Source: Ruficoccus sp. ZRK36
GTDB lineage: Bacteria; Verrucomicrobiota; Verrucomicrobiia; Opitutales; Cerasicoccaceae
DNA length: 64,000 nt
Assembly (NCBI RefSeq): GCF_019603315.1
Contig: NZ_CP080649.1
Coordinates: 2,304,176-2,368,175, forward strand
Direction of reading: 5' to 3'
The notes beneath the pieces are model-generated. The model searched no databases, was not told the origin of the DNA, and saw only the letters and a program-made list of their open reading frames with translations. Position 1 is the first letter of the stretch, and every line of letters starts with the position of its first letter. The position numbers and the translations under genes are program-made. Of the stretch, positions 44,059 through 45,971 are shown one piece after another.

Positions 44059-45732
44059 TCACGCACGGCGGGTGCGGATCATCTCGCGGTTGGCACCACC
44101 GGGAGGGACCATCGGCAGCACCTGTTGCTCGACGCAGGTGGGTGCGTTGATGAGGACCGGCCCGGGACGTGCAAAGGCATCGGCCAGTGCGGCGTCGATG
44201 TCCGGCTCGTTGGCCAGGTCAACCGCATCCATGCCCATGGCGCGTGCCATCATGGCGAAGTCCGGACCGCGCTCGAACTTCGAGGCGATCAGGCGCTTGC
44301 CGAAGAACAGTGTCTGCTGCTGGTGGACGAGCCCCAGTGACTGGTTGTTCATGATGATGATCTTCAGGTTCGCGCCAGCCTCGGCGGCGGTGACCATCTC
44401 CTGATTATTCATCAGAAAACTGCCGTCGCCGCTGATGCAGACCACGGGGCACTCCGGCTCGGACAGGGCCGCGCCCAAGGCTGCGGGCAACCCGAATCCC
44501 ATCGTGCCCAGTCCGCCACTGGTCAGCCACTGGCGGGGTCGGCAGAAGGGGAAGCTCTGGGCGGTCCACATCTGGTGCTGGCCGACGTCGGTGGCGACGA
44601 TGGCGTCGCGCCCGGCATGGCGGGCGATAGCCTGGATCAGCCCATAGTGGGTGGACGGGTCGTCCGCGCCGGGCATCTCCATCGGGTGCTCGGCCTTCAG
44701 GGTGGCGATGCGGGTGTTCCAGTCCGCGCGTTGGCGGGCAGGTATTGTTTTCAGCAACTGCTCCAGAAATCGGCCCACGTCGCTGCGGACCGACAGGGTG
44801 GGCTGGCGGATTTTACCCAGCTCGGATGTGTCGATATCAACGTGGATGACGCTCGCTCCGGGGCAGAACTCCGCGACCTTGCCGGTCGCGCGGTCGTCGA
44901 AGCGCGCGCCCAGCGCGATCAGCAGGTCGCACTCCTCCAGAGCGAGGTTCGTGTACGGGGCGGCGTGCATGCCCAGCATCCCCAGTGACTGCGGGTGATC
45001 GGTGGGCAGGGCCCCCAGTGCCATCAGGGTGCTGACAGCGGGCAGATGCGAACGCTCCGCCAGCTCGCGGGCCAGCTCTCTGGACTCACTGTGAATGATG
45101 CCTCCGCCCAGATAGAGGATGGGGCGCTCGGCGGCCTCGATCATAGCTATGGCCTCGGTGATCGCATCGTTGTCGGGCTCGATAGGGGCGTCGGCGATGC
45201 CGGGCTCGGGCCACTCCTCGAACTCGATCGTGGCCTGCTGGACGTCCTTGGGGATGTCGATCCAGACCGGGCCGGGGCGGCCGCTGGCGGCGATGCGGAA
45301 GGCCTCCGGGATGACGTGCAGCAGCTCCTCTGTCGATTGGACCAGGACGTTGTGCTTGGTCACGGGCAGGCTCATCCCGAAGACATCGACCTCCTGAAAG
45401 GCGTCGGTGCCGATGAGCGGGCTGGCAACCTGACCGGTGATGCAGACCACGGGGATCGAGTCCAGCTTGGCGTCCGCGATGGCGGTGAGGATGTTTGTCG
45501 CGCCCGGGCCGCTGGTGGCGAAGCACACGGCGGGGCGCCCGGTGGTGCGGGCCAGGCCCTGCGCGATGAAGCCCGCCCCCTGCTCATGACGGGAGAGGAC
45601 GTGGCGGATCACCGGCCGGCGGGCCAGCGCGTCGTACAGGGGCAGGTTAGCCCCTCCGGGGATACCCGCGATGGTGCGGATCCCCTGGCGTTCCAGCAGG
45701 CGGATGACGAGGTCGGCTCCGGTCATTTTCAT
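44059..45732 (-). CDS. ilvB: acetolactate synthase large subunit (ThDP enzyme)
   Basis: The enzyme makes acetolactate/acetohydroxybutyrate, the first common step of valine, leucine and isoleucine synthesis. The 557-residue protein has the catalytic Glu E50 in SRHEQGAG, FATSGPGATNILTAIADA, TKHNVLV, the FAD-region GMHAAPYTNLALEECDLLIALG and the ThDP/Mg motif GDGSFLMNNQEM. The assignment as a biosynthetic enzyme is supported by the Val-rich leader peptide and attenuator upstream. No ilvN regulatory subunit gene follows; a repeat element lies downstream instead. ATG 45732 and ATG 45726 are alternative starts. Confidence 0.9.
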   Translation of the reverse strand: MKMTGADLVIRLLERQGIRTIAGIPGGANLPLYDALARRPVIRHVLSRHEQGAGFIAQGLARTTGRPAVCFATSGPGATNILTAIADAKLDSIPVVCITGQVASPLIGTDAFQEVDVFGMSLPVTKHNVLVQSTEELLHVIPEAFRIAASGRPGPVWIDIPKDVQQATIEFEEWPEPGIADAPIEPDNDAITEAIAMIEAAERPILYLGGGIIHSESRELARELAERSHLPAVSTLMALGALPTDHPQSLGMLGMHAAPYTNLALEECDLLIALGARFDDRATGKVAEFCPGASVIHVDIDTSELGKIRQPTLSVRSDVGRFLEQLLKTIPARQRADWNTRIATLKAEHPMEMPGADDPSTHYGLIQAIARHAGRDAIVATDVGQHQMWTAQSFPFCRPRQWLTSGGLGTMGFGLPAALGAALSEPECPVVCISGDGSFLMNNQEMVTAAEAGANLKIIIMNNQSLGLVHQQQTLFFGKRLIASKFERGPDFAMMARAMGMDAVDLANEPDIDAALADAFARPGPVLINAPTCVEQQVLPMVPPGGANREMIRTRRA

Positions 45733-45795
45733 AATAGCTTCTGTCGGTGGTTTTTTGTTTTTCCCCCGGAAGCGTTCGACGCGGATTTTTTAAAT

Positions 45796-45830
45796 GAAAA
45801 ACCCCTGTCGAACGCATTCGGCAGGGGTTT
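45796..45830 (-). terminator. ilvB attenuator terminator
   Basis: Read on the minus strand, AAACCCCTG and CAGGGGTTT plus five inner pairs (CCGAA/TTCGA, one wobble) make a 14-bp stem with a 4-nt loop, followed by U residues. It begins 24 nt after the leader peptide stop codon and ends about 64 nt before the ilvB start, the position of an attenuator. The GTCGAACGC sequence within it is also complementary to 45772-45780 downstream, which could allow an alternative fold. Confidence 0.8.
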
Positions 45831-45854
45831 CAGTAAAGTCTCTAAAGTTCTTTG

Positions 45855-45932
45855 CTAGGCCCGTGCGGATGCGGTCGAGGTCACGAGGACTACGACTACG
45901 CTTACGAGCACGATTACGCTGTTGAACTTCAT
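45855..45932 (-). CDS. ilvB leader peptide (branched-chain attenuation)
   Basis: A 25-codon frame starts at ATG 45932 and ends at TAG 45855-45857. After MKFNS comes VIVLVSVVVVLV: codons 6-17 comprise eight Val, two Leu and one Ile, interrupted by one Ser, and it then ends TSTASARA. This is the composition expected when ribosome stalling on Val/Leu/Ile codons controls termination, as for the E. coli ilvB and ilvG leaders. A terminator hairpin follows 24 nt after the stop and ilvB lies beyond. No Shine-Dalgarno sequence is seen before the ATG. Confidence 0.8.
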   Translation of the reverse strand: MKFNSVIVLVSVVVVLVTSTASARA

Positions 45933-45942
45933 TGTTGCGGCT

Positions 45943-45971
45943 TTTGAACACCCGCAGTGCCCATTTGTCAA
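45943..45971 (-). promoter_or_regulatory. candidate promoter of the ilvB leader
   Basis: A perfect -35 TTGACA is read on the minus strand at 45966-45971. With a 17-nt spacer the -10 would be TTCAAA (45943-45948), a weak match. If correct, the transcript would start about 4 nt before the leader peptide ATG, making it almost leaderless. Confidence 0.35.

Follow-up and report, generated by a model that had tools for sequence, protein, structure and literature searches.

A valine-rich leader peptide with a covarying antiterminator ahead of ilvB in Ruficoccus and other Opitutales: a probable transcription attenuator of the ivbL kind

The ilvB locus and its leader

The stretch of Ruficoccus sp. ZRK36 DNA analysed here (64,000 nt, hereafter the window) carries on its minus strand an ilvB gene (44059..45732), which encodes the 557-residue large subunit of an acetolactate synthase of the I type. 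The protein scores 920.7 bits against NCBIfam NF006016 (PRK08155), above the cut-off of 870; we take PRK08155 to be the AHAS I family. An LpxI-like gene, with a match below its cut-off, is located upstream of ilvB, and a convergent obgE is located downstream. No match to ilvN was found in the ilvB locus of the window, nor was any match to IlvN found in the genome of the strain. This genome also encodes another acetolactate synthase (46% identity) and, far from both synthases, one IlvH-type small subunit.

Upstream of ilvB, an open reading frame of 25 codons runs on the minus strand from ATG to TAG at 45855..45932 (MKFNSVIVLVSVVVVLVTSTASARA). Codons 6–17 of this leader read V I V L V S V V V V L V, with 11 of the 12 specifying Val, Leu or Ile, and re-reading of the frame bore out the peptide described in the first-pass annotation. 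It is the sole ORF of 12–60 codons in the 64-kb window with at least 10 such residues per 12 codons, two others scoring 9. The leader DNA is present as a single copy in its own genome; a second, weak match (E 0.14) was judged to have arisen by chance. The window leader matched neither PF08049 nor NF007579, the two models of the IvbL leader peptide family (0 families), whereas E. coli IvbL scores 72.6 and 78.7 bits against them, respectively.

An intrinsic terminator hairpin (GAAACCCCTGCCGAATGCGTTCGACAGGGGTTTT, minus strand, 45798..45831) begins 23 nt past the leader stop codon. It consists of 14 pairs with one internal mismatch, has a folding energy of −18.6 kcal/mol, and is followed by a T-rich tract (TTTTTCATTT, minus strand, 45792..45801) and then by ilvB, in agreement with the 14-bp hairpin and U-tract reported previously. 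With the hairpin ending at 45798 and the ATG of ilvB at 45732, the terminator lies well upstream of the ilvB start. No competing antiterminator had been obvious in the first-pass annotation, a view that is overturned here, since a covarying helix joins the tail of the leader to the terminator's 5′ arm and loop. Segment 2, made up of the last codons of the leader (minus strand, 45860..45877), is the 5′ strand of the antiterminator; segment 3 (minus strand, 45813..45828) comprises the 5′ arm and the loop of the terminator and is common to both structures. Specifically, CGACCGCATCCGCACGGG (45877–45860) pairs with ACCCCTGCCGAATGCG (45828–45813).

A −35 box, TTGACA, is read directly at 45966..45971 on the minus strand, and the position of its TTGAC recurs in relatives. 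A consensus scan places a putative −10 box, TTCAAA, a poor match, at 45943..45948 (minus strand), with a predicted transcription start near 45936. Among the 33 Opitutales loci introduced below, TTGAC occurs 30–44 nt 5′ of the leader start codon in 22, compared with 83 of 6,600 shuffled sequences. A TTGACA-type box lies 33–35 nt 5′ of the leader AUG in nine of the ten loci of the window clade and 42 nt in the tenth, and in another group of Opitutales TTGAC is found 73–78 nt 5′ of the leader start. The −10 boxes are poor across the loci. Usual promoter spacing would put the transcription start 2–13 nt 5′ of the start codon in those 22 loci, and from the 33–35-nt distance a nearly leaderless mRNA is predicted in the window clade. 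No Shine-Dalgarno sequence precedes the leader (−0.1 kcal/mol, or −2.8 kcal/mol with a slightly different stretch), as had been stated before; such signals are weak throughout the window, where 11 of 39 first-ATG frames, with crude start calls, reach −4.5 kcal/mol or lower, against 18% in shuffles. The earlier description of the peptide as leaderless or weakly initiated is plausible and rests on promoter prediction. A transcription start downstream of 45855, which had been named as a point against the attenuator, is countered by the recurrent TTGAC in the 22 loci, the start itself being a predicted one. Leaderless initiation has a precedent, since it is discussed for C. glutamicum ilvBNC in PMC11857589, and leaderless polycysteine attenuators of mycobacteria are named in the reference list of PMC13236596.

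Conservation and covariation across the family

A search of 372 genomes of Opitutales for this IlvB (E up to 1e-150) returned 33 genomes, and a Val-rich ORF is located ahead of ilvB in all 33. Together with an uncultured Opitutaceae, E. coli, three proteobacterial MAGs, a Spirochaetes MAG and a Myxococcales MAG, these make up a family of 40 loci, from which L041 (a T-box), L042 and L045 (no upstream DNA), and L046 and L070 (other enzyme types) were left out. Within 12 codons, at least 9 Val, Leu or Ile residues are present in 35 of the 40 loci and at least 7 in all of them, while first-order Markov resamples of the family upstream DNA reached 9 in one of 2,000 cases and 7 in 146 of 2,000. Val is the commonest residue, with 280 of the 1,026 codons of 34 Opitutales leaders (Leu, 113; Ile, 40). 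The terminator hairpin with its T-run is present in 39 of the 40 loci, 13–31 nt past the leader stop; the hairpin of L043 is without a T-run. The Val codons, the −35 spacing and the terminator are all kept in relatives at 70–90% IlvB identity. Outside the Val run the peptides vary freely, and some contain charged residues inside it; hence the codons, rather than a protein fold, seem to be kept. A hairpin retained by a leader that had lost its branched-chain codons was seen in 0 of the 33 Opitutales loci. The Val-rich frame (33/33), the hairpin with T-run (39/40) and the covarying antiterminator described below support the E. coli ilv-type reading put forward from the window by itself.

As controls, 21 readable upstream regions of acetolactate synthases of the AYPGG type (that of L028 being unreadable) were scored in the same 12-codon frame and gave best scores of 2–9, with L018 reaching 9 and L025 and L026 reaching 8; L070, of another enzyme type, has a best score of 5. 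L018 and L025, both of family f3, have Val/Ile-rich leader-like ORFs ahead of the AYPGG-type synthase, with no T-run hairpin seen by eye. In 387 genomes over the phylum, one extra match was obtained outside Opitutales, which belongs to the other enzyme type and is without a leader. At the gathering score, Rfam assigned neither an ilvB family nor any other leader family to these loci, the permissive matches in the window leader being weak or on the other strand; on the E. coli ilvB stretch, istR is the sole Rfam match.

The own leader tail and own terminator arm of 39 loci pair with a mean energy of −22.3 kcal/mol, compared with −17.5 kcal/mol (sd 0.52) when the arms are permuted among the 39 loci, and 0 of 20,000 permutations were as low as the real value. 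Shuffling of the leader tail gave a mean z of −2.9 for the pairing, with 29 of the 39 loci below −2. When arms were permuted within clades only, the result was 0/20,000 for clade B, to which the window belongs, 0.003 and 0.016 for the Opitutaceae-like groups A and C, respectively, and a non-significant 0.166 for the six mixed D loci.

Covariation was scored in 25 of the 39 loci, on a helix picked by the analyst from the predicted duplexes. In this antiterminator helix 24 cells are changed on both sides, vs 9.4 in shuffles (0/500); the covariation score is 0.294 vs 0.192 in shuffles (0/500), the best slid register giving 0.133, and standard pairs account for 79.1% vs 71.8% in shuffles (0/500). 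The number of pairs with any two-sided change is 6 vs 4.3 (61/500), and the register slid by +2 likewise gives 6. For the nine window-clade rows alone, the covariation score is 0.183 vs 0.137 (3/500) and the pairs with two-sided change are at the level of chance (2 vs 1.7). Thirteen of the 24 two-sided cells fall in columns 84–87, which form the terminator loop in most loci, so the terminator stem would not explain them. The leader, the terminator, the covarying antiterminator and their conservation are shown by comparison of sequences, and the covariation of the antiterminator extends across phyla.

A model of the switch and its alternatives

We propose, with a probability of about 0.88, that transcription is attenuated here in the ribosome-mediated manner of ivbL, the element sensing charged Val-tRNA, and less so Leu-tRNA, and controlling ilvB. 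For the start site, the stalling, its timing and the response to amino acids, we infer the following course. RNA polymerase would start a few nucleotides 5′ of the leader AUG, as judged from the predicted promoter, and a ribosome would begin on the leader. When Val-tRNA is scarce, the ribosome would stall in the Val run and leave 45877–45860 free to pair with 45828–45813; once the antiterminator is formed, the terminator could not form in time and ilvB would be transcribed. With ample Val-tRNA, the ribosome would go on to the stop codon and cover 45877–45860, and the terminator at 45831–45798 would form. If no ribosome is loaded, a predicted upstream hairpin in the Val run would hide segment 2 and transcription would stop.

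Folding of the leader, which had been suggested as a check, predicted alternative structures, namely the antiterminator and the upstream hairpin in the Val run. When the window RNA is folded through segment 3, at the stage preceding synthesis of segment 4, 13 antiterminator pairs are predicted at all seven modelled Val stalls, 2 with the ribosome at the stop codon, and 0 without a ribosome, in which case the upstream hairpin hides segment 2. For the Val stalls, the median state is predicted to have 7 or more antiterminator pairs in 39 of 39 loci, and the state with the ribosome at the stop codon in 0 of 39; real leader tails average 13.4 antiterminator pairs and shuffled tails 9.2. Without a ribosome, 33 of the 39 loci still fold the antiterminator, most family members being without the upstream (1:2) hairpin. 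Of the 39 loci, only six fold like a full three-hairpin attenuator, the window and five others; by handle these are L001, L004 and L005, from the genus of the window, and L009, L048 and L063.

At equilibrium, the terminator wins in every modelled Val-stall state in 35 of the 39 loci, E. coli included, and the switch must therefore be kinetic, as the E. coli attenuator switch is taken to be. The window terminator melts at equilibrium at one of seven Val positions, and, when the 3′ end is extended, at three of five codon positions. As a test of switching, folding at equilibrium does not discriminate, since the known attenuator of E. coli also fails.

Could the same leader act at the level of translation, with its structure gating ribosome access to ilvB instead of termination? 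Such attenuator systems exist for other genes, the first-pass annotation bore the title of a translational attenuator, and the hairpin of L043 has no T-run. However, a strong hairpin with a T-run stands in 39 of the 40 loci, well upstream of the ilvB start, which makes this explanation very unlikely. The title itself used the wrong term, because the arrangement is one of transcription attenuation driven by translation of the leader. Less credible still, the ORF could encode a genuine small peptide, secreted or membrane-bound, in which case the hairpin would be its ordinary terminator and ilvB would have its own promoter. By eye the window peptide does look like a signal sequence (MK, a hydrophobic run and an ASA-like end), and T-rich hairpins commonly follow genes, but apart from the Val run the orthologous leaders have little in common, and in some of them charged or polar residues interrupt that run (e.g. 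VKVVVVVV, LNVVVVVVVEW). Furthermore, at the RNA level the final codons covary with the terminator, and the leader accompanies this ilvB in all 33 Opitutales; the covariance model described below gave no match in the same-genus genome G003, which is without this IlvB. Least likely is a non-functional relic that was transferred together with ilvB from Proteobacteria and does not work any more with verrucomicrobial polymerase and ribosomes, for although the window clade adjoins a proteobacterial IlvB (99/97) and IlvN was not found in the clade, the match of tail and arm is kept inside Opitutales clades (0/20,000 in the window clade) and the Val codons, −35 spacing and terminator persist in relatives at 70–90% IlvB identity.

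Regarding the role of transcription attenuation, ilvN adjoins ilvB in 15 of the 33 Opitutales genomes, and IlvN was found in 0 of the 10 window-clade genomes, among them G198, which is only 74% complete. In the window clade, valine may control IlvB mainly through attenuation.

Known counterparts, probable spread across phyla and a possible second target

Attenuation of ilvB is known in E. coli (cited in PMC10272879). The E. coli ilvBN operon with IvbL (b3672) resembles the window in having a Val-rich leader, an antiterminator and a terminator followed by AHAS I ilvB, and in E. coli, too, the antiterminator forms between the last part of the leader (TGCGCCGTAGGG) and the 5′ arm plus loop of the terminator (CCCCGCCGGCGCA). 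Apart from a leader unmatched by the IvbL models, the window differs in its predicted 4-nt 5′ UTR without a Shine-Dalgarno sequence and in having no ilvN; moreover, its stop codon lies past the antiterminator strand, whereas that of E. coli lies inside the strand.

Attenuation of ilvB is also known in Actinobacteria (PMC1262725, PMC10272879, PMC11857589, PMC13236596). C. glutamicum ilvBNC and M. tuberculosis ilvB1 are described with a branched-chain leader, a terminator and an antiterminator (PMC11857589, PMC13236596); as actinobacterial leaders, they are likened to the window by layout only. Mutation of the regulatory codons in the Streptomyces coelicolor ilvB leader is reported in PMC1262725 to be without effect, which counts against the attenuator reading. 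The ilvB-II (Corynebacterium), ilvB-OMG and Leptospira ilvB RNA motifs have branched-chain uORFs before ilvB, with attenuation proposed, and the sections of PMC10272879 describing them do not name Verrucomicrobia. The window family has no match to an ilvB family in Rfam and may overlap the ilvB-OMG motif. In a broad survey from 2010 (PMC2965389), the authors knew, besides ermC, of no leader-peptide system outside Proteobacteria and Actinobacteria before their own Firmicutes histidine leaders, for which transfer was left open and separate origins were favoured. Searches of the open-access literature found no paper on leader-peptide attenuation in Verrucomicrobia, and none naming Opitutales among the papers listed by a broader search. 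The mechanism is a known one in a new phylum, and the copies ahead of a second ORF, described below, are the more novel part.

Ahead of ilvB, the same attenuator core is present in E. coli (ivbL) and further Proteobacteria, in Spirochaetota and, lacking a U-run, in one Myxococcales MAG; the core sequences of E. coli, Verrucomicrobia and a Spirochaetes MAG are alignable. In a tree of 55 rows, Opitutales IlvB forms three groups, and a single Opitutales clade is rejected (AU p 7e-5). The two Opitutales groups near Proteobacteria are compatible with one acquisition (AU p 0.31), and the IlvB group of the window is sister to a proteobacterial MAG sequence (99/97). The second IlvB tree left out L043 (long branch), L063 (partial) and L079 (no usable protein) and used 16 Spirochaetota rows. 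Because a single Opitutales clade is rejected, gene and attenuator probably spread together; IlvB probably entered Opitutales at least twice, each time with its attenuator.

In 198 genomes of Spirochaetota, 25 IlvB matches with 48–58% identity were obtained, four of which were without a readable upstream and stand outside the leader count. A candidate leader (at least 7 Val, Leu or Ile in 12 codons, with at least 3 Val) is present in 19 of the 21 readable upstreams; five of these leaders have -AP as their last two residues, as in E. coli IvbL, and two have -TP. L094 and L102 are doubtful, and several hairpins are without a T-run. The IlvB-like loci L100 and L101 of Spirochaetota have no Val-rich leader. 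In Clostridium bovifaecis, a T-box, which reads uncharged tRNA directly and without a leader peptide, replaces the attenuator ahead of the same type of ilvB (L041, 2197–2447; RF00230, 121 bits).

These comparisons suggest that the valine-peptide switch moves with ilvB between phyla and also precedes another gene. A core alignable across phyla, in an attenuator that tracks its gene through an IlvB tree in which a single origin within Opitutales is rejected, argues for shared descent with the gene. That E. coli ivbL and the elements of Spirochaetota, Myxococcota and Verrucomicrobiota represent one old, horizontally mobile module, normally with ilvB and in one family also at the HDFL ORFs described next, is a proposal to which we give even odds.

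From 25 loci, a covariance model was built of the antiterminator form; run on 344 genomes (E up to 0.01), it gave matches in 78. Among the 33 IlvB genomes it recovered 27 ilvB leaders, 11 of them from outside the model set; the other six genomes (G350–G370) are absent from the matches and may lie outside the 344 genomes drawn. Away from these ilvB genes, all 32 matches with E up to 4.4e-4 were examined. In 26 of them (L126–L142, L144–L151, L153), a Val/Ala/Ser-rich leader precedes an ORF of about 60–110 aa with an HDFL-like motif (HDFL, NDFL, HDLL, HDML or HGLL). Four others, without such a leader, are probably chance matches. The codons of the 26 leaders include 195 for Val, 142 for Ala and 140 for Ser (109 TCC), with less Leu, and the mRNAs are again predicted to be nearly leaderless. 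By group codes, 25 of the 26 HDFL loci belong to one family, f14, which is probably Opitutaceae, since the Opitutaceae MAG L038 falls among the f14 IlvB rows.

Pfam gave no family for any of the six small HDFL ORFs searched against it, and NCBIfam gave no convincing match for the four searched there. A profile of 23 small ORFs, run on 312 genomes, gave 17 matches below 1e-5, all beside the source attenuators, and the weaker matches are mostly long unrelated frames. Whether the HDFL attenuators were copied there or left behind in one Opitutales family, their inclusion in the single mobile module seems to us as probable as its contrary. Opitutales offer a natural set of about 60 related switches, 26 being ahead of a different ORF, for testing which amino acid is sensed.

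Two further matches are of other kinds. In L125 (G040:C1:153700-157100), the attenuator is ahead of an ilvB reduced to 173 aa by an in-frame loss of its middle, the start and the C-terminal part being retained; in L152 (G116:C1:2405000-2408400), it is directly ahead of an ilvN-like ACT protein with no ilvB between. At five HDFL loci (L126, L127, L147, L148 and L153), a PLP-dependent aminotransferase starts up to about 300 nt past the terminator, at or after the small ORF.
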